Program-made: the position numbers and the translations under genes
From: a bacterium
GTDB lineage: Bacteria > Cyanobacteriota > Vampirovibrionia > Obscuribacterales > Obscuribacteraceae
Direction of reading: 5' to 3'
Assembly (NCBI GenBank): GCA_030431355.1
Contig: JAUIJG010000231.1
Coordinates: forward strand, 1 to 8,209
Length of the DNA stretch: 8,209 bases
Shown here: one piece after another, positions 1-8,209 of the stretch
How the letters are laid out: every line of letters starts with the position of its first letter
Position numbering within the stretch: position 1 is the stretch's first letter
The notes under the pieces: model-generated
Seen by the model: only the letters and a program-made list of their open reading frames with translations
Databases searched by the model: none
Told to the model about the DNA's origin: nothing

Positions 1-513
1 AGACAGTTCGGACAAATTCTACTGGAGAAGGGAAGTGTTACCCATGAACTGCTGGAGGCCGCTATTGTGCTCCAGGACATGGTTGCCAATGATACCTTGA
101 AAGCATTCCAGGCCGGCCAGGCTCTTAGACAGTGCAGAGATGCCCAGGTCTCCGTATACCAGGCTGTGGCCGAGCTAGATCCTCCGGCCCAGGCGCCGCA
201 AAAGCATATCAGCCCTTCGGATCTATTAGTTCAGTCGGGACTGGTGGACAGAGAAAAGATGGATGAATTGGTTCCGGAGCCGTTGGACAGCTCTATCAAA
301 GTGGGCAAAAAAGTTCTCGCCGCCGGAGTAATCAGTGAATCATTTCTCTATCTCGCCTTGAGAACTTACTCTCTTTTCAAACAGGGTTATCTCTCAGCGG
401 ACCAGGCCACAGAAGCCCTGGCCAAGTGCAGAGAAGACAAAGTCAGTCTTGATGAAGCCCTCTCCAAGCTGGACTGGAATGTCCCCGCCAGAATGCAGTG
501 GGTCTGGACATAA
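1..513 (+). CDS. GspE-N/MshEN-like helical repeat protein, C-terminal part (5' truncated)
   Basis: The frame is open from the first base, so the start lies outside the window; 170 C-terminal residues are visible. They contain three copies of a short pattern resembling the GspE/MshE N-terminal (MshEN) helical motif, hydrophobic-Leu-x-x-Gly-x-Val/Ile-Ser/Thr-x-x-x-Leu: visible residues 3-22 (FGQILLEKGSVT...), 73-91 (SDLLVQSGLVDRE...) and 101-120 (VGKKVLAAGVIS...). The first and third copies continue into a second matching half, ending in VSVYQAVAELD and VSLDEALSKLD, so residues 3-60 and 101-158 are tandem repeats of about 58 residues. In known families this fold sits at the N terminus of secretion and pilus ATPases and can bind cyclic di-GMP; here no ATPase domain follows. 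The gene ends 5 nt before the patatin-like gene, which suggests co-transcription. The biological role is unknown; a sensory or scaffold role is only inferred. Confidence 0.75.
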   Translation, partial: RQFGQILLEKGSVTHELLEAAIVLQDMVANDTLKAFQAGQALRQCRDAQVSVYQAVAELDPPAQAPQKHISPSDLLVQSGLVDREKMDELVPEPLDSSIKVGKKVLAAGVISESFLYLALRTYSLFKQGYLSADQATEALAKCREDKVSLDEALSKLDWNVPARMQWVWT

Positions 514-518
514 TCTAG

Positions 519-1541
519 ATGTTCAAAACCAAACAATTGCCAGCTATCGCGGCCCTTACCTCCCTGATGATTCTGGGAGCTGAAGCGAGCACAGCCTCGG
601 CCACTGACACCATATATGAGGACAAGGTCTCCAACAGTTCACAAAATTTCCAGGGCTCTGTCAGCAAAAAAGCAAGACCGAAAGTCGGTCTTGCCCTGGG
701 AGGAGGCGGCGCAAGGGGGGCAGCCCATGTTGGAGTGCTCAAAATTCTGGAGCAGCAAGGAATCACCATAGATTACATCGCGGGCACTAACGTTGGCGCT
801 GTGGTGGGAGGTCTCTATGCTGCCGGGATATCCCTCGACTCCATGGAAGAGATGTTTGTCAAAAGGTCTTTGCTCAAAGCCTATCTGACCGTTCCGCTGA
901 AAGTAAGAATACTGGTGATTCCGCTTTTCAGCACTTCCCGACTGGTCGGCCGCAAGAGCCTGGACGGTCTCTACCGGGGCAATCGCTTCAGAAAGTTTTT
1001 GAACCGCTATGTTCCTGAATCGGAAAGAGACCTCACCGACTTGAAGATTCCTTTTGGTGCAGTCACTTTCGACCTGATCGATGGTGAGGTGAAAGTGCTG
1101 AAAGAAGGAAATCTTGGTAAGGTCTTACAAGCCAGCTCAGCCATTCCTGTATTGCGAAAACCGGTAAAAATGAAGACTTCATCGGGAGACAATCATCTTT
1201 TTGTGGATGGAGGTGTCGCCGTCAATCTCCCGGTAAAACAGGTAAGGGCAATGGGAGCCGATGTGGTGATTGCGGTAAATTTGAATGACTCCCGCACCGC
1301 CAGCAAAGAGTCCGAATTCTATAAGGTTGGCAGCGTAAGCCACAGGGTTATTCAGCTGCACCTGAAGTCTATCGACAAGGAACAGCTTGAGAATGCAGAT
1401 CTTGTCATTGATCCGGATGTGGACGGAATAGGACTGATTTCAAGCAGTCAAAAAGACGCCGAGTATGCAATAAAAGCAGGCGAATCGGCAGCATTAAAAG
1501 AGCTGGATAAATTACACAAACTAACCAAAACAGGTCATTAG
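519..1541 (+). CDS. Secreted patatin-like protein lacking the catalytic serine
   Basis: A 340-residue protein of the patatin-like phospholipase (RssA/NTE) family. Residues 1-28 form a signal peptide with a hydrophobic core and an A-S-A signal peptidase I site (26-28), so export across the inner membrane is expected. The oxyanion loop GGGGARG is intact (61-67), as are the conserved ASSAIPVL stretch (205-212) and the dyad motif VDGG with Asp230. The nucleophile elbow, normally G-T-S-x-G, reads G-T-N-V-G at 89-93, so the serine is Asn91 (AAC codon 789-791). A serine-to-asparagine change should abolish lipid acyl hydrolase activity, so this may be a pseudoenzyme with a binding or scaffold role. 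The remaining fold looks well conserved with no frameshift, which argues against a decaying gene. The start is the only ATG that supplies the signal peptide. No strong Shine-Dalgarno is seen, and the upstream stop is 5 nt away, so translational coupling is likely. Confidence 0.9.
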   Translation: MFKTKQLPAIAALTSLMILGAEASTASATDTIYEDKVSNSSQNFQGSVSKKARPKVGLALGGGGARGAAHVGVLKILEQQGITIDYIAGTNVGAVVGGLYAAGISLDSMEEMFVKRSLLKAYLTVPLKVRILVIPLFSTSRLVGRKSLDGLYRGNRFRKFLNRYVPESERDLTDLKIPFGAVTFDLIDGEVKVLKEGNLGKVLQASSAIPVLRKPVKMKTSSGDNHLFVDGGVAVNLPVKQVRAMGADVVIAVNLNDSRTASKESEFYKVGSVSHRVIQLHLKSIDKEQLENADLVIDPDVDGIGLISSSQKDAEYAIKAGESAALKELDKLHKLTKTGH

Positions 1542-1550
1542 TTTGCCCAG

Positions 1551-1573
1551 TCCGATAGAACTCTCTATCAGGA
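1551..1573. terminator. Weak hairpin between convergent genes
   Basis: GATAGA (1554-1559) and TCTATC (1564-1569) are perfectly complementary around a 4-nt loop, and the outer TCC/GGA can add three pairs if A1570 bulges. It lies just beyond the patatin-like stop codon and overlaps the end of the opposing gene. The stem is AT-rich and no T tract follows on either strand, so intrinsic termination is uncertain. Confidence 0.25.
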
Positions 1574-2422
1574 GAATGTTGGAGAAGCGTTATCCACTTG
1601 CATCTTTAAAGGGGGCAAGTCTCCGGTCAGATAGCCCTCCAGACCACCTTCCATGAGCCTCTGCACATCCTGAAGGAATCTAGCTGCAGGGGCTCCGTCA
1701 ATTATTCGGTGGTCAAAATTGTAGGCCACGGTCATCATCGGTCTAATTTGGATCTCACCGTCCCGTACCACTGCCCGATCTTCAACTTTGCCTATCCCAA
1801 AGATAGTGGTTGTTACACAGGGCGGAACGAGAACCCGGGCGCCATATTTGCCCAGAGTGCTGAGACCGAATGTCGCGCCCTGATATTTCAGACGGAATGC
1901 AGGAAAATGTCTGCCCATCATCAAGATAAACTGCCTTACCAGCCAGGGAAAGTTGTTGAATCGATTTTGAATGTTCAACTGATCTACTTCTTCAAAGTCT
2001 TTAGTGCCGTATGCTTTGAGCTCTTCTGCGATCTGCTCCACCGGCTTGGTATCTGCGTCATCTATCGCGCCGAAGAAAACAGCCGCCTGGGGTCCGACGA
2101 ATCTCTCCACGGTGAATCCGGCTACGATGTTGCCCAGAGTCACTTGACGCCCCCAGGGCATTCTCAAGGTACGGCTCTCGGGATGGGCTCTCTGGGCGAT
2201 GGCTATCGCCTTCAGGAGGATAGCAGTGACAGTAACCTTACTGCCAACGCTCTTCATGCGAGTTCTCAACTCTTCTGCCCAGGTCATATCAATATCGCAA
2301 AGCAGGAGGGTAGGCACACTGCCTTTATTCATAACCTCAATCAGGTCTAGAACGTTCCATCGGGGACGGGGCAACTTGGATACCGAGTAATTGAAGACAC
2401 TCTTTTTCGGATCGTTGGACAT
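1568..2422 (-). CDS. Stand-alone 2-oxoacid dehydrogenase E2-type acyltransferase domain protein
   Basis: A 284-residue protein matching the catalytic domain of dihydrolipoamide acyltransferases (E2), part of the CoA-dependent acyltransferase superfamily with chloramphenicol acetyltransferase. The signature DHRIIDGA is present at 237-244, giving catalytic His238 and Asp242/Gly243. ATFGLSTLGKYG (183-194) corresponds to the conserved strand before the active site that reads TFTISNLG-like in E2 proteins. The N terminus has neither a lipoyl domain nor a peripheral subunit-binding domain, and no E1 or E3 gene is nearby, so it is unlikely to be a normal pyruvate or 2-oxoglutarate dehydrogenase subunit. 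Acyl transfer to an unknown acceptor is the most that can be inferred. There is no signal peptide, so it should be cytoplasmic. The ATG start has only a weak AGGTG-like sequence upstream. It converges with the patatin-like gene and diverges from the pilin-domain gene. Confidence 0.85.
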   Translation of the reverse strand: MSNDPKKSVFNYSVSKLPRPRWNVLDLIEVMNKGSVPTLLLCDIDMTWAEELRTRMKSVGSKVTVTAILLKAIAIAQRAHPESRTLRMPWGRQVTLGNIVAGFTVERFVGPQAAVFFGAIDDADTKPVEQIAEELKAYGTKDFEEVDQLNIQNRFNNFPWLVRQFILMMGRHFPAFRLKYQGATFGLSTLGKYGARVLVPPCVTTTIFGIGKVEDRAVVRDGEIQIRPMMTVAYNFDHRIIDGAPAARFLQDVQRLMEGGLEGYLTGDLPPLKMQVDNASPTFS

Positions 2423-2513
2423 ATTGACTTAGCACCTAACCTACGCTGACTAACTACTACATAACACAATCAAGAGCTTCCGATGTCAGACAAGCCTGTA
2501 ATTGAAAAAATCC

Positions 2514-2541
2514 TTGAAACAGTAGACTACTATTCTATTAT
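2514..2541 (+). promoter_or_regulatory. Candidate sigma70-type promoter for the pilin-domain gene
   Basis: TTGAAA (2514-2519) and TATTAT (2536-2541) are spaced by 16 nt, within the AT-rich 234-nt region between divergent genes. An overlapping TATAAG at 2539-2544 is an alternative -10 box with a longer spacer. This would give a 5' untranslated region of about 105-110 nt before the ATG at 2657. No convincing promoter was found on the opposite strand for the acyltransferase gene. Confidence 0.35.
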
Positions 2542-2656
2542 AAGATTATCAAGAGGATCCCGTGAAGGGCTTTTTGTAAATACCTTTTATTTTTCTTGAA
2601 AGTTAAGCAGTTACCGCTCCTAGCTACTATCTGAGAAAGACGCAACTTTAGGAAGA

Positions 2657-3721
2657 ATGTTTCAGAAGCGCTTCATCAAAAACACCCAACAGTTCAACCC
2701 TGCAGGATTTGAGCTGATTACAAAAAAAAACAATGACAGAAAAATGGATAAAAAGAGCCTTTCCACACCGCTGAGCCCAGGAAATATTGAAATTTCCGGC
2801 AACCATCCAATTAGTTGTTGTCGCATTTCGCCTGAAAAAATAACCCTGGCAGTAATTGGCTTCATTTTGCTCCTCCCCAATTGCGCCCTGGCTAGACGAG
2901 CCAGGGATATCGATGAATTGATGGGGAGACAATTCATTCGTACAACAAAAGACAAAAGAGACTACGTTCTCCTCAATATGAACAAGACTCAGAAAGCGGC
3001 AGAGAACTATGCAGCTCACAATGAAGGTGTTTATCCCCTGAAAATGAACGACGCCTTCAAGAGCTATTTCCCCCTGGGAAACTGTGATGGAAAGAACTAC
3101 ACAACCTACACAATACTCCACAATCCTTACACCGAAAAGCCAGGTTGGCCCAAAGTCTGCCTCATTCCTGATGTGGCGGGTAAGGGTGAGCCCGGCGAGA
3201 TTGAATACTATGTGGATAGAAAGAAAAACAGCTACAAAATATGCGGCAGGCTTGAAGATGGCGGTCTGCTCAAAGAGAGAAAGAGTTCTGCGCCACTATT
3301 TTTGAGGTCGAGCCGGAGACAAGCCAGCCTGGCCAACGCCAGACTGGTCCAGTGGGCAGCAGAAAGATACAACGAAATTGTGAGGGTATATCCGATCGGA
3401 ATGACCAGAACCTTCAAATGCTACTTTCCGGGCGGAGACCCAAAGAAAGCTAAACCCGGTAGACAAATTTGCAATCCTTACACCGGACGCAAGGAGTGGC
3501 CAGTGACAGGCAAAATCAAAAACTTGAGAAACGCAAGGCTGGCTTCGCCTTCCGTACTCAAAAGAGGAACAATAGAATATAGCCGCCTGGAAAGAGGATC
3601 TGACTATGCCATCAGAGTAGGTGGTAAAAATGACCGAGCCCTATCGGGATATGGAGGCCGGCCTACAACCCTGGTTATCGCCAGAGATGGCGATGGAAGC
3701 GGTCACGAAAGACAGTTTTAA
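2657..3721 (+). CDS. Secreted protein with two tandem pseudopilin-like globular domains
   Basis: A 354-residue protein. A hydrophobic stretch (63-73) followed by A-L-A (77-79) looks like a signal peptide with cleavage near residue 80, so the mature protein is probably outside the inner membrane. Two internal copies follow, at about 106-204 and 226-341. Each has an AAE-x-Y helix (114-118, 234-238), a VYP (125-127, 244-246), a Phe-Lys-x-Tyr-Phe-Pro segment (134-139, 253-258), NPYT (156-159, 273-276), a Trp-Pro (164-165, 281-282) and G-x-IEY (180-184, 304-308). This arrangement resembles the C-terminal globular part of type II secretion/type IV pilin-like proteins. The prepilin peptidase motif and FTLIE-type N-terminal helix are absent. 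The ATG has AGGAAG almost abutting it (1-nt gap), which is too close to be ideal; an in-frame stop at 2621-2623 bounds the frame upstream. A second ATG at 2744 would shorten the unusually long leader by 29 residues. Substrate or partner is unknown. Confidence 0.75.
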   Translation: MFQKRFIKNTQQFNPAGFELITKKNNDRKMDKKSLSTPLSPGNIEISGNHPISCCRISPEKITLAVIGFILLLPNCALARRARDIDELMGRQFIRTTKDKRDYVLLNMNKTQKAAENYAAHNEGVYPLKMNDAFKSYFPLGNCDGKNYTTYTILHNPYTEKPGWPKVCLIPDVAGKGEPGEIEYYVDRKKNSYKICGRLEDGGLLKERKSSAPLFLRSSRRQASLANARLVQWAAERYNEIVRVYPIGMTRTFKCYFPGGDPKKAKPGRQICNPYTGRKEWPVTGKIKNLRNARLASPSVLKRGTIEYSRLERGSDYAIRVGGKNDRALSGYGGRPTTLVIARDGDGSGHERQF

Positions 3722-3726
3722 TAGGG

Positions 3727-3758
3727 ATTAGACGGGTGGATGGGGTCACCCGTCTAAT
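3727..3758. terminator. Perfect 12-bp hairpin downstream of the pilin-domain gene
   Basis: ATTAGACGGGTG (3727-3738) and CACCCGTCTAAT (3747-3758) are perfectly complementary around an 8-nt loop. It begins 6 nt after the TAA stop of the pilin-domain gene and lies between two convergent genes, the classic place for a bidirectional terminator. No T run follows on either strand, so it may work as an mRNA 3'-end stabiliser or need other factors. Confidence 0.45.
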
Positions 3759-3880
3759 AAGTACAGTCGGCGATGTTCACGCGGTAACTACTATATTTTC
3801 CTCGAATCGCTCCTGGCATGACCTCAAATAATGCAGGCGCTCTTCAGATTCAAATTTTAGCGTTGAGCCGCTGTCCTGGA

Positions 3881-3905
3881 TCCTGCTGCTGGCTAGACAG
3901 CAGGA
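3881..3905 (-). repeat. GC-rich hairpin at the 3' end of the VIT/VWA gene
   Basis: TCCTGCTG (3881-3888) and CAGCAGGA (3898-3905) pair perfectly across a 9-nt loop. On the minus strand it begins 2 nt after the stop codon of the VIT/VWA gene. A competing CAGGAC/GTCCTG pairing with 3873-3878 is possible. No T tract follows, so a terminator or mRNA 3'-end structure is plausible but unproven. Apart from this and the 3727-3758 hairpin, the 186-nt gap 3722-3907 shows nothing. Confidence 0.35.
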
Positions 3906-3907
3906 CT

Positions 3908-6622
3908 TCAGACAGTGAACTGCCAGAATGAACCATTTTTCCCTAAGGCTCTGGTCAGAGTCGCTTCGGCTTCAGCCAATGCATCATCAAAACCAAGATC
4001 AAGCTGTTTTCGCATCGCTCTCAAACCAGCAACTGTAAGGCTTGGAGCCACCATAGCGGCGAGAAGACTTCTGTAATTGAGAGAAATAATTGTCGAAATT
4101 TTTGGCATTTCATAAGCCACAGGATGGTCATCCAGAGAATTCCGCAACTCCTCACAGGCGATAACGACAGCATCAACCGCCGGCATTTCGCCCTGCTCCA
4201 CCTGAATCCAGAAGTCGGTCCAGGCAAGAACAAATTTGTCCAGACTAACCACCACCTGCATCAAAGGTCCGGTCAGTTTTTCCGGTGAGGCGATTGAGAG
4301 CCTCGACAACCCCTTAAATGCGCTTGTTCCGCTAGATTTAGTAGAACCTTCGTACTTCGCCATATCACTGAAGCCGTAAGAATTGGATTTTGACTCTATC
4401 GATAAAGAATCTTCCTGACAGGGCTCAGACTGTTGCAGCGTGGGCGCAGCCTCTGGTTGAGGGAGACCCAAACCACCAGTCATTGCATATCCACCACCAG
4501 TAGTACCACATGCCGGTGGTGGCGGCGCCCCCCATGCTCCGGACATGGAGCCACTGAAAGAATCAAAACCAGCTGCTCCCCAGCCGCCGGCACCAGTGGA
4601 TCCGGGAACGGAAGCCCCCCAGGAGAGCGGGTTATGAACAGGCTGATAGGTCTTTCTGAGACCAAGGTCTTCTGACTGTATCTCCTCCTCATCCACCACA
4701 GTGAATGCGGTAAATCTGGAGAGAATGGAATACTCCACGGACAAATCTACAATCGCTTCACGAAAGACATCCTTTTCAGCGCCCCAGCCGAATCCACCTT
4801 CTGCAGCTCTAAATCGATCCTCCAGGTCTTGAATTACACGTCTTGCCCATAACTTGCCAATTGCTTCAATGTTCCCTTGTCCCAGAAGAACCTCTTCTTT
4901 GAACTTTCGTCCATCTTGATATTCACCTTCCACAATAAGTGCAGGCACAGCGTCTGCTTGAGTCGCGCCACCTGATTCATAGCGAAAGAATATGTCTACG
5001 GATCGACCAGAGAACAAATCAGGTACCATTTGTGGTGCAATGCTGGACTGTTCAACTTTGCAGTTCAGACCTCTGATGCGCAGCTTGGTGACCACTGGCT
5101 CACCAATGTCACTGGCAATTTTACGCATCGAATCCTCCAGGTCGCTTCCTGGCTCAACTACATAGGAGACCCCACCGGAAAGCTCCGAGAGATGTTTTAA
5201 AAAGCCGTAATTTACTGCGGTATCAATACCTAGAGAAAAAATGCGAATTCCTAAATCACTCTTCTGTAGCAGTTTGAATACATGGGACTCATCTCCCACC
5301 TGACCATCGGTTAAAAGAACGATTACCGGAACACGGTCGGAGTCGGTCTTTTCAAAACGCTCTAGAGCTTCACCCAGGGCAGAACAGATCTCAGTTCCAC
5401 CGGAAGCATCGACCTCGGTTAGAAAGTCCAACGCGGCAGCTACTGCCTCTTCATCGGATTCCACAAAACTGGTATCACCACTTTCTTCATGTCTTCCCCG
5501 ATTCCCAAAGAACCATGAATTTTGATGATCGAAGGCATTGATGGCAAACCGGTCGGCCGGACCAAGGCTGGAGAGAAGATACTTACAAGCCCTCTTAGCA
5601 GAAAGCATCTTGGCTCCCATCATAGATCCCGAGCGGTCCAGCAAGAAGATAAGATCTCTTCCTCTTGTGGTGTCGCTTTCGTCCTGGGAAGAGACCTCGG
5701 GAAGAATTGAAAGCATCCCTACTTTAGCTTTCTGAGTTTCATCGGAGAATGAGTTAAATCGACAAGCGATGCCACTTTCGGCCACAGTCCAGCGAAGAAT
5801 AAAATCACGGTTCATCAGCTCCTTCTTGTTGGCCAGGCTGACTCTCGCTCCACCTTCCTCAAAGTCTAGACGGGTGGCATGCTGAGAGCAGGCAAGGTTT
5901 TTAAGTTTTAGATCGTCCCTGGAGTTCGTCGAGTTCTTAGAGTCAACGCCAAAAGTAACATCGATACGGAGATCGACTTCAGGATCAAAATCTTCAGCCA
6001 ATCTCGGAGGACTTATTCTCGATGCATCCGGAACTCTATCGGAGTCGAGCGATACTCCATCACCTACCTGCTCTCGTGCCACCGGCTCCCCTCCGACATA
6101 ACGCGGTGCCACCACTAAAGGCAACCGCAACTCGGTGGAGCCATCTTCAAAGAAAGAAAGAATCTCACAGTATTTTATTTCAACTTCAAGGGTCTCATCA
6201 GGCTGAATATTTCCCAGGCTGACAGTAAAAATCTCATCTCGTTCTTGCTCCATCAAACAAGCTCTCTTGCCGCTATCCAGGGCTTCTTGATACTGCTTGC
6301 GCGCCTCTGAACGCTCTTGAATTTTGCCTTTTACAGTTCGTTCGCCAACTTTCAATTCCACGGAGTAGATAGAAGCACTGGCACTCACGGGAAAAGTGTA
6401 AACAGCCTCCAGACTCTCTCGATAGCAGTTCTTAAAGCTCTGTCGAATGGTGACATCAGCAAACCGGCTGGAAACTCGGGCATCTATCTCAACGGACTTT
6501 AGAGGCAGGGAAACTTGCTGGTCCTTTCTCTGGGCGAGAATCTCTCCCAGGGAGCGGCTCTTGCCGTAATAGAGCTTGTTCAAAAGTTTTACAACACTAT
6601 TCAGATTCCTCTTCTTGTCCAT
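3908..6622 (-). CDS. VIT domain and von Willebrand factor A domain protein with unique C-terminal region
   Basis: A 904-residue protein. Residues 38-160 form a VIT (vault/inter-alpha-trypsin) domain, including the AVYTFPV and GKIQERSEARKQYQEA-type segments. A beta-rich linker follows, then a VWA domain at about 322-500. The metal-ion-dependent adhesion site is complete: D329-x-S331-x-S333, Thr410 in GGT, and Asp439 in LTDG. Residues 624-645 (SVEYSILSRFTAFTVVDEEE) match the conserved segment after VWA in this family. A low-complexity Gly/Trp/Pro linker (about 667-722) and an unassigned mostly helical region (770-904) end the protein. There is no signal peptide or membrane segment, so a cytoplasmic adhesion or scaffold role is inferred. 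A longer frame exists with an ATG at 6670, but the start at 6622 has a strong AGGAGA 8 nt upstream. It overlaps the end of the MerR-like gene by 26 nt, so the two are almost certainly one operon. Confidence 0.93.
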   Translation of the reverse strand: MDKKRNLNSVVKLLNKLYYGKSRSLGEILAQRKDQQVSLPLKSVEIDARVSSRFADVTIRQSFKNCYRESLEAVYTFPVSASASIYSVELKVGERTVKGKIQERSEARKQYQEALDSGKRACLMEQERDEIFTVSLGNIQPDETLEVEIKYCEILSFFEDGSTELRLPLVVAPRYVGGEPVAREQVGDGVSLDSDRVPDASRISPPRLAEDFDPEVDLRIDVTFGVDSKNSTNSRDDLKLKNLACSQHATRLDFEEGGARVSLANKKELMNRDFILRWTVAESGIACRFNSFSDETQKAKVGMLSILPEVSSQDESDTTRGRDLIFLLDRSGSMMGAKMLSAKRACKYLLSSLGPADRFAINAFDHQNSWFFGNRGRHEESGDTSFVESDEEAVAAALDFLTEVDASGGTEICSALGEALERFEKTDSDRVPVIVLLTDGQVGDESHVFKLLQKSDLGIRIFSLGIDTAVNYGFLKHLSELSGGVSYVVEPGSDLEDSMRKIASDIGEPVVTKLRIRGLNCKVEQSSIAPQMVPDLFSGRSVDIFFRYESGGATQADAVPALIVEGEYQDGRKFKEEVLLGQGNIEAIGKLWARRVIQDLEDRFRAAEGGFGWGAEKDVFREAIVDLSVEYSILSRFTAFTVVDEEEIQSEDLGLRKTYQPVHNPLSWGASVPGSTGAGGWGAAGFDSFSGSMSGAWGAPPPPACGTTGGGYAMTGGLGLPQPEAAPTLQQSEPCQEDSLSIESKSNSYGFSDMAKYEGSTKSSGTSAFKGLSRLSIASPEKLTGPLMQVVVSLDKFVLAWTDFWIQVEQGEMPAVDAVVIACEELRNSLDDHPVAYEMPKISTIISLNYRSLLAAMVAPSLTVAGLRAMRKQLDLGFDDALAEAEATLTRALGKNGSFWQFTV

Positions 6623-7178
6623 CGAATAATTCTCCTGTGCCAGCAGGGTCGCTTTTGCCCGAAGCGCCAAATGCTTCCAGGGCAGCCTTAACCCGGCTTA
6701 AAATCATGCTCTCGTCGATTTTGGGCTTCCAATCATCAGCTATCATCAACTTCAAACCCGGCTCCAGTTCTACTTCGCTGTATCTGCGAATCTCAACTGT
6801 CTCAAGGGGCTCTTTCTTCAATAGCTTTGACTTGACCCGGTTAGACTCCTGAACACTGGTGACTACATTTTCAAGCTCTTCATCGGTGGATCCGTAGAGA
6901 AGGGATTGAATTTCTGAAAGCGGAAGTGAGACGCTTTGCAAAGCCTTGATTGCAAGAATTTGCAACACATGTCTTTCGCCATAGCGAGCCTGTCTTCCTT
7001 CTATAGAAGGTCGATCAAGTATGCCTAGCGATGTGTAATACCTGATAGTGCGCCGATCCGGTGCAGATGAGACCCGGTTGTCCTGCTGCAGATTTTTAAG
7101 TCCGCGCTCTTTTAGTAAGCGAGAGACCCTATTGGATAACTCATCTATCGAGTATTTCGTCGCGTCTTCCGCAACCAT
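6597..7178 (-). CDS. MerR-like transcriptional regulator, partner of the VIT/VWA gene
   Basis: A 193-residue DNA-binding protein. Residues 9-20 (YSIDELSNRVSR) form the first helix of a MerR winged helix-turn-helix. RTIRYYTSLGILDRP (43-57) is the recognition/turn segment, and GRQARYGERHVLQILAIKAL (61-80) is the wing and following helix. Between the first helix and RTIRYY lie about 20 extra residues (21-42) not found in classic MerR proteins. A short helical stretch (86-122) could serve for dimerisation. The tail (128-193) has RRYSEVELEPGLKL and an acidic end, with no cysteine effector site, so metal sensing is unlikely. The start is uncertain: a frame extends to a TTG at 7232, and an ATG at 7196 has no visible ribosome site. 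The ATG at 7178 follows GGTGAG by 9 nt and is preferred. It precedes and overlaps the VIT/VWA gene, so it probably controls its own operon. Confidence 0.85.
   Translation of the reverse strand: MVAEDATKYSIDELSNRVSRLLKERGLKNLQQDNRVSSAPDRRTIRYYTSLGILDRPSIEGRQARYGERHVLQILAIKALQSVSLPLSEIQSLLYGSTDEELENVVTSVQESNRVKSKLLKKEPLETVEIRRYSEVELEPGLKLMIADDWKPKIDESMILSRVKAALEAFGASGKSDPAGTGELFDGQEEESE
6631..6636 (-). promoter_or_regulatory. Ribosome binding site fixing the VIT/VWA start
   Basis: On the minus strand AGGAGA stands 8 nt before the ATG at 6622, inside the 3' end of the MerR-like gene. It decides for the 904-residue form over the longer reading from 6670 and suggests translational coupling between the two genes. 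Confidence 0.8.
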
Positions 7179-7187
7179 AACAGTATT

Positions 7188-7193
7188 CTCACC
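7188..7193 (-). promoter_or_regulatory. Probable ribosome binding site of the MerR-like gene
   Basis: GGTGAG on the minus strand, 9 nt before the ATG at 7178. It is weaker than the site of the VIT/VWA gene but better than anything before the alternative starts at 7196 (ATG) and 7232 (TTG). Confidence 0.4.
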
Positions 7194-7308
7194 CATTGCT
7201 GTGATGCTGTCAAGATACTGCAAAATCAACAAGAACGCAAGTAAAATCTCCCAAAACCCTTTACCCGAAACACTTTACAACCCGCTTCCGATACGGAATG
7301 CACCATAA

Positions 7309-7375
7309 ATTGTAAACTCATCCGTTACAGTTTTACAGTTTTTCTATCATTTACAGTAATCCTGGCAGATTACTG
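7309..7375 (-). promoter_or_regulatory. Candidate promoter/operator of the MerR-VIT/VWA operon
   Basis: On the minus strand TACAAT (plus positions 7309-7314) is a good -10 box, with only a poor -35 box upstream, as is common at activator- or MerR-controlled promoters. Just upstream are three direct repeats, TTACAG on the plus strand (7325-7330, 7333-7338, 7351-7356). There is also a TGTAA-N9-TTACA inverted repeat (7311-7329) and the palindrome CAGTAAT-N8-ATTACTG (7354-7375). This would give a leader of about 120-130 nt before the ATG at 7178. The promoter assignment is an inference; the repeats are directly visible. Confidence 0.4.
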
Positions 7376-7490
7376 CAATATTCAAATTCCAGAATCCGGG
7401 AAGACAAAGCATTGCTTTAGCCTCATATCATCAAGACAAAAAACTAATTCCGGTCATACCAAAGAGCTTTCAAACGTAACAGAGCCAGAC

Positions 7491-7520
7491 TAACAGTATT
7501 TAAATTTGCTGTTACTGTTA
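7491..7520. repeat. Perfect inverted repeat TAACAGTA-N14-TACTGTTA
   Basis: Two 8-nt arms (7491-7498 and 7513-7520) are exact reverse complements around an AT-rich 14-nt centre. Centre-to-centre spacing is 22 nt, about two helical turns, which suits a dimeric DNA-binding protein better than an RNA hairpin. The arms carry the same CAGTA core that recurs across this intergenic region. Confidence 0.5.
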
Positions 7521-7556
7521 ATATTTCCCACCATCCAGCACACTGCCACCCTGGTG

Positions 7557-7585
7557 CTATCAATTGCCGCTGCAGCTTTTGATAG
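7557..7585. repeat. Inverted repeat CTATCAA-N15-TTGATAG
   Basis: Perfect 7-bp arms at 7557-7563 and 7579-7585; the loop contains the self-complementary GCTGCAGC. It lies about 80 nt downstream of the response regulator stop codon and could be part of its 3' end, but no T tract follows on the minus strand. It does not share the CAGTA core. Confidence 0.3.
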
Positions 7586-7664
7586 ACCCTGACCGTATTA
7601 CTGCAAAGAGCCTGTATTGCATCCAATTAGATAACAAACTTTCGAACTAACTGAAGCGCAAATT

Positions 7665-8209
7665 TCAAGCTTCGAGCTTGTAACCCACACCATGCACATT
7701 GCGAATTAAAGACTGCTCCCCTTTGGTATCAATCTTGCTTCTAAGCTTTTTGACACTGGTACGAATTGTCTCCGGGGACTTGTCGGAGTCAGCTGTCCAG
7801 ACCCTGTCCAATAGAGCTTCAGCGCTGAAAACCTGACCTTTGTGGCGCATCAAAAATTCTAATAGAGCAAACTCCATACGAGGCAAGTGGATGTCCTTAC
7901 CCCCCTTGGTGACGGTATGGGCACCAATGTCTAGAGAAATATTGCCTGCACTGAGAACCTCACCAGCAAAATCTTTAGGTCGCCGCATCAAGGCCCTCAG
8001 CCTGGCCGATAACTCCTTGAGATGAAATGGCTTCGTCAGATAATCATCCGCACCGGCATCAAATCCCAACTCCTTGTCAGGAACTGTTCCTCTACCAGTC
8101 AATATCAATATAGGAGTCTCGCCACCTTGCTGTCGAAAAGTCTTGCATACCTCGATACCATCCATCTTTGGAAGGGTGAGATCCATGATGATCACGTCAT
8201 ATTTATAAG
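7665..8209 (-). CDS. OmpR/PhoB-family two-component response regulator (5' truncated)
   Basis: The frame runs off the right edge; 180 C-terminal residues are visible. An apparent GTG start at 8195 lies inside the receiver domain (YDVIIMDLTLPKMDG) and is not the real start. The phospho-accepting aspartate is visible residue 9, with the conserved Thr37 (LILTGRG) and Lys59 (YLTKPF) at normal spacing, so the receiver should be functional; about 45 N-terminal residues are missing. Residues about 84-180 form the winged-helix output domain, ending in IRNVHGVGYKLEA, typical of PhoB/OmpR proteins that bind direct repeats as dimers. The cognate histidine kinase is not in the window, so the signal is unknown. 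The gene has the same orientation as the MerR-like operon but is separated by 486 nt, so it is probably a separate unit. A small inverted repeat (7666-7680) spans its last codons. Confidence 0.93.
   Translation of the reverse strand, partial: YKYDVIIMDLTLPKMDGIEVCKTFRQQGGETPILILTGRGTVPDKELGFDAGADDYLTKPFHLKELSARLRALMRRPKDFAGEVLSAGNISLDIGAHTVTKGGKDIHLPRMEFALLEFLMRHKGQVFSAEALLDRVWTADSDKSPETIRTSVKKLRSKIDTKGEQSLIRNVHGVGYKLEA

Follow-up and report, generated by a model that had tools for sequence, protein, structure and literature searches.

What becomes of an enzyme whose nucleophile has been lost? The question is raised by a gene for a patatin-like protein in a stretch of 8,209 nucleotides (hereafter the window: contig JAUIJG010000231.1 of assembly GCA_030431355.1, positions 1 to 8,209 of the forward strand, from a bacterium of the Obscuribacteraceae), in which Asn91 stands at the place of the catalytic Ser. 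We find that the patatin of this locus has lost its nucleophile Ser and that, in the lineage of the window, Asn arose once and has not varied since, nor have the glycines G62-G64 and G67 of the Gly-rich loop, Arg66, His70 or the Asp of the dyad; the sequence comparisons that follow give good support to the view that the gene of this Asn clade is not decaying but encodes a selected pseudoenzyme.

The codons GGC-ACT-AAC-GTT-GGC at 783-797 of the window translate as G89-T90-N91-V92-G93. The encoded protein has matches in Pfam to the Patatin family alone (PF01734; score 90.5 bits, the curated cut-off being 27.7), and its predicted model is closest to the solved structure of PlpD, a protein which carries other domains besides patatin. 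The best fold matches are likewise patatins, whilst the alpha/beta hydrolase fold, from which the patatin fold differs, is absent from the fold matches listed. When the window protein was aligned to PlpD with phmmer the elbow was ungapped, with Asn91 over the elbow Ser of PlpD and Asp230 over the Asp of its DGG motif, and in the model the elbow region consists of a strand (residues 86-89) and a helix (residues 91-101). Thus, of the features of a catalytic patatin, the Gly-rich loop (GGGxR/KG) and the dyad Asp in DGG/DGA are present and the Ser of GXSXG is missing. The first-pass annotation of the window had described this combination, Asn for the catalytic Ser with an intact GGGGARG loop, ASSAIP segment and VDGG motif, and the description holds in full, the three segments lying at residues 61-67, 205-210 and 229-232. 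The N-terminus, judged by eye, is signal-peptide-like.

In order to place Asn91 among homologues, the best 120 of 3300 database matches were aligned. Amongst these, residue 91 is Asn in 37, Ser in 72, Gly in 10 and Asp in one, with the window adding one further Asn, and the Asn matches are exactly the 37 protein clusters nearest to the window protein (53-97% identical to it). The named sources of the matches listed are mostly Candidatus Obscuribacterales and Melainabacteria. Five Asn matches (P0006, P0016, P0017, P0019 and P0034) and one Gly match (P0042) are labelled 'patatin-like phospholipase family protein' in their source records despite having no nucleophile; patatins are commonly annotated as phospholipases by homology alone. 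Across 26 nucleotide sequences the codons at the site are AAC or AAT for Asn, GGC or GGT for Gly and AGC or AGT for Ser, and the six sequences from the Asn clade use AAC four times and AAT twice. From a Ser codon (AGY) both Asn (AAY) and Gly (GGY) are a single transition away, in agreement with the earlier remark that AAC lies one transition from AGC, and Asp (GAY) is two transitions away. A sequencing error or lone mutation at Asn91 was rejected, since all 37 nearest clusters have Asn, both Asn codons are used and the Asn rows are united in a single clade.

This clade was recovered in two trees. For the first, five genomes with an Asn-type patatin were added to the database matches to give 43 Asn rows (38 distinct proteins, the genome copies L086-L089 being identical to database matches; 26 groups at 90% identity), and of 98 distinct patatin cores from genomes only those with E < 1e-70 entered the final 194 rows. 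FastTree grouped the full set of 43 Asn rows as a single clade (support 0.997), beside a sister clade of 26 rows (25 distinct proteins; support 1.0) in which residue 91 is Gly in 18, Ser in seven and Asp in one (P0046); the 69 rows joined with a support of 0.989. Outside this locus clade Ser is found in 125 of 125 rows, 124 of them in the alignment and the misaligned L140 by direct reading. The second tree, made with IQ-TREE from 62 rows (18 of them outgroup) with columns 90-92 removed and locus rows of at least 90% identity dropped, supported the Asn clade (26 rows) at 99/98, and on it one change to Asn and two involving Gly are counted even if the starred branches alone are trusted (four in total). 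These counts mean that Asn arose once and stayed, whilst the sister clade saw either two or more origins of Gly or a reversion to Ser. The first-pass annotation had looked to a clade sharing Asn and had favoured a selected pseudoenzyme over decay; the single clade with invariant Asn, the open frames of its genomes and the synteny described below bear out both, and to them we add that in the sister orthologues Ser was replaced separately, by Gly or Asp, and that five related genomes have no patatin at the locus.

All 43 rows of the Asn clade share G62, G63, G64, R66, G67, H70, G89, N91, G93, D230 and G231, whilst position 92 is occupied by four different amino acids and position 90 by two, and G61 is kept in 38 rows and replaced by Ser in five. 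Of the 279 columns of the clade core, 75 show no variation in a clade whose tree is ~8 substitutions per site long, so that N91 belongs to the best-kept quarter of columns. The sister clade differs: G67 has become Ser or Ala in 26/26 rows and H70 is retained in 5/26, even though seven rows keep Ser91, whilst D230 is retained in 25/26. Amongst Ser-type patatins, a comparison set of 124 outgroup rows picked as having Ser, G67 is retained in 120 and D230 in all 124. The Asn clade and the sister lineage have therefore lost different parts of the catalytic machinery, and the Gly-type sister orthologues, to go by their sequences, are probably a second group of dead patatins at the same locus. Eight Gly-type sister orthologues (L082, L090-L094, L108 and L160) have a changed loop (GGGGMRSAACVG and similar).

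Constraint on the gene was estimated as the ratio of nonsynonymous to synonymous divergence (dN/dS) by the Nei-Gojobori (NG86) method for 16 pairs, of which five gave no dS; several dS values exceeded 1, so that the ratios are rough. They were ~0.03-0.12 in four Gly-type pairs (L090/L093, L082/L094, L082/L090 and L091/L092), ~0.06 and 0.13 in two sister-clade pairs that have Ser (L107/L110 and L083/L103) and 0.09-0.12 in four pairs of Ser paralogues. As far as they go, these values suggest similar constraint with and without the nucleophile.

The gene has a stable setting. It lies directly downstream of a gene termed F1 and convergent with one termed F3 in the window and in all eight long contexts (9/9), and seven genes of the window (F1, the patatin, the acyltransferase F3, F17, and those for a VIT/VWA protein, a MerR regulator and a response regulator) are collinear and in the same relative orientation in a related genome, G004; the MerR pairing was made by reading, an overlap filter having omitted that gene in the window. 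F1 was searched for in 53 genomes of the order, matched at E <= 1e-20 in 48, and 30 loci were read. The 23 best-matching loci (L150-L172) comprise five genomes with an Asn patatin, eight with Gly, five with Ser and five with no patatin between F1 and F3; six more distant loci (L173-L178) have no adjoining patatin, and in L179 (G050) a Ser patatin lies between F1 and F3. In the five patatin-less genomes (G010, G035, G040, G041 and G042; L225-L229) tblastn found no patatin remnant between the two genes at E <= 1e-3, the remaining matches being at chance level (E >= 0.23), and in G010 ~15 bases separate the F1 and F3 matches. In a tree of F1 the Asn genomes group with the patatin-less G010, two internal nodes having support near 0; this is what vertical descent with one loss would give. 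Horizontal transfer of the Asn form was rejected, as the F1 tree also unites the Asn genomes and as 386 sampled genomes from the phylum, searched at a strict cut-off that was not based on Asn (E <= 1e-95), contained no match except G004. The F1-patatin-F3 locus of Candidatus Obscuribacterales, which are uncultured bacteria related to the cyanobacteria, thus looks vertically inherited.

Features of the window (positions in the 8,209-nucleotide stretch)
Feature	Positions	Strand	Basis
Patatin-fold protein, 340 amino acids, no catalytic serine	519..1541	+	Open reading frame, Pfam and fold match
Nucleophile elbow GTNVG (residues 89-93); Asn91 codon AAC at 789-791	783..797	+	Translation, PlpD alignment
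Oxyanion-type Gly-rich loop GGGGARG (residues 61-67)	699..719	+	Motif reading, homologue alignment
VDGG (residues 229-232) with dyad Asp230	1203..1214	+	Motif reading, homologue alignment
F1, 3' part, gene of a helical-repeat protein, truncated by the window edge; its stop codon ends at 513 and the ATG of the patatin is at 519	1..513	+	Context comparison
F3, lone 2-oxoacid dehydrogenase acyltransferase (E2) catalytic domain	1568..2422	-	PF00198
Protein without Pfam match	2657-3721	+	Same place in G004
Genes, all read in one direction, of a VIT/VWA protein, a MerR-type regulator and a response regulator	3908-8195	-	Same order in G004

The F1 protein, of ~400-450 residues, is predicted to be an all-helical repeat. 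A match to DUF4388 was rejected as sub-threshold (17.8 bits against 25), and the model is weak (predicted local distance difference test score, pLDDT, 71; predicted template modelling score, pTM, 0.43; 8 rows), with designed alpha toroids as its best fold matches; on account of this match and model no function is claimed for F1. Another copy lies at L112:10545-11900 on the minus strand, and the family is expanded, with up to 24 matches per genome at E <= 1e-20. F3 contains HRIIDG and has no match to a lipoyl domain. The protein encoded at 2657-3721 shows, by eye, an apparent internal duplication (YPLKMNDAFKSYFPLGNCDGK and YPIGMTRTFKCYFPGGDPKK).

In order to assess whether the loss of the nucleophile extends to other patatins of the same cells, we collected the patatin matches of seven genomes (G004, G014, G021, G022, G023, G025 and G034; five with Asn and two with Gly at the locus), 82 in total and 6-18 in each, with 5-17 outside the locus in each Asn genome. 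The locus copy is without Ser in 7/7, whilst 74 of the 75 other patatins have Ser in an elbow-like motif, as read in the best-scoring frame with no structure per protein (L127 was read as GTSIG after the filter had missed it), and the remaining one (L223) is a fragment without an elbow. In the genomes examined, loss of the nucleophile is therefore peculiar to this locus and does not extend to their patatins generally.

What such a protein might do is suggested by what it has kept. Having no nucleophile, it would be unable to cleave esters through the Ser/Asp mechanism, whereas the preserved pocket could still bind an acyl chain or a phospholipid, and it might then serve a partner by sensing or presenting lipid or by regulating that partner, the most plausible candidate being a Ser-bearing patatin paralogue of the same cell. 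By analogy with known pseudoenzymes, we consider a non-hydrolysing protein that binds, senses or presents lipid, or regulates such a paralogue, to be slightly favoured. Several observations weigh against it. Gene order singles out no specific paralogue as the partner of the Asn patatin; F1, judged by eye, has no signal-peptide-like start, so that it and a secreted patatin may never meet; five related genomes retain F1 and F3 without the patatin, which makes it dispensable in some lineages; dS is saturated between the Asn genomes, the sole pair with a value (L087/L089) having a dS of 2.4, so that dN/dS within the Asn clade is not estimable; and the join of the Asn clade with its sister, at 0.989 in FastTree, is weak in IQ-TREE (73/24), although their common synteny supports it.

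A purely structural or competitive role, as a subunit of a hetero-oligomer or a decoy with no lipid in the dead site, appears to us unlikely, if still to be taken seriously. The sister clade keeps the fold in spite of its altered loop and of an elbow with Ser in 7/26 rows, so a patatin fold can outlive its site; yet the invariance of G62-G64, Arg66, G67, His70 and Asp230 in the Asn clade goes beyond the apparent need of a scaffold. It is improbable that Asn91 is itself catalytic, whether by positioning a water with Asp230 or by deamidating to an Asp nucleophile. Such a role would agree with the strict invariance of Asn between the varying residues T90 and V92 and with the Asp of P0046 in the sister clade, but the Gly found in orthologues of the same locus could not act in this way, an N-V pair does not deamidate fast and we know of no patatin that works through a catalytic Asn. 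Still less probable is a hydrolase or acyltransferase that has moved to another nucleophile, such as Ser206 or Ser207 of ASSAIP: Ser206 is present in 42/43 Asn rows, but it is as well conserved in Ser-type patatins (123/124), and hence no replacement, and residue 207 is Ser in 32/43 and Cys in 11/43. We give least credence of all to the view that the gene is decaying or neutral, or that its Asn is an error of sequencing. The five loci without a patatin, the two or more separate Gly changes in the sister clade and the missing dN/dS of the Asn clade would fit it; against it are the 37 Asn protein clusters, frames that are open in five of five Asn genomes, and ratios in the Gly-type pairs (~0.03-0.12) much like those of the Ser-type paralogues (0.09-0.12). 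Decay of the Asn-clade gene was accordingly rejected on its open frames, its invariant catalytic surroundings and its synteny.

Amongst the open-licence papers searched we found no description of this Asn patatin family. The patatin domain of Pseudomonas aeruginosa PlpD (5fqu, 5fya) has Ser in its elbow where the window protein has Asn. The loss of Ser from a patatin is itself already known from Toxoplasma TgPL1, which lacks the catalytic Ser, keeps the other catalytic residues as the Asn clade does, has been proposed to bind lipid or serve as a co-enzyme (PMC10513453) and is reported to show phenotypes on knockout (PMC7365478, PMC10653942). TgPL1 is, however, a protein of a eukaryotic parasite, whilst here a bacterial orthologous group shows one Asn clade and separate Gly and Asp changes at one locus; what is new is a bacterial Asn variant within the pseudoenzymes of the patatin family. 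At this one locus the orthologues carry Asn, Gly or Ser, a related metagenome protein carries Asp, and the same cells contain Ser paralogues; the conversion of an enzyme to a pseudoenzyme, and the use of a dead active site, thereby become directly testable. The Gly and Asp of the sister clade are also the substitutions described for DPP10 (Gly) and DPP6 (Asp), inactive hydrolases with a replaced nucleophile Ser and, in DPP10, an unaltered elbow (PMC4350108); these belong to a peptidase family with a beta-propeller, and DPP10 modulates potassium channels, unlike the patatins here. The nearest parallel to the Asn itself is ABHD5/CGI-58, which has Asn for the nucleophile Ser in a GXNXG elbow, is described as having no ester hydrolase activity and co-activates the patatin lipase PNPLA2 (ATGL) (PMC4706320, PMC4849665, PMC12871566), with protease activity reported and acyltransferase activities disputed (PMC12871566). 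ABHD5 is an animal protein of the alpha/beta hydrolase fold with a known partner lipase, whereas the window protein is a patatin; it could nonetheless work in a like manner, a GXNXG elbow marking a non-hydrolysing co-activator of a patatin lipase. That lineage-specific dead patatins of bacteria co-regulate living ones by binding lipid, convergent down to the Asn with the ABHD5-PNPLA2 pair, is a possible but doubtful extension of this analogy and would, if true, mean a patatin regulating patatins within one cell.
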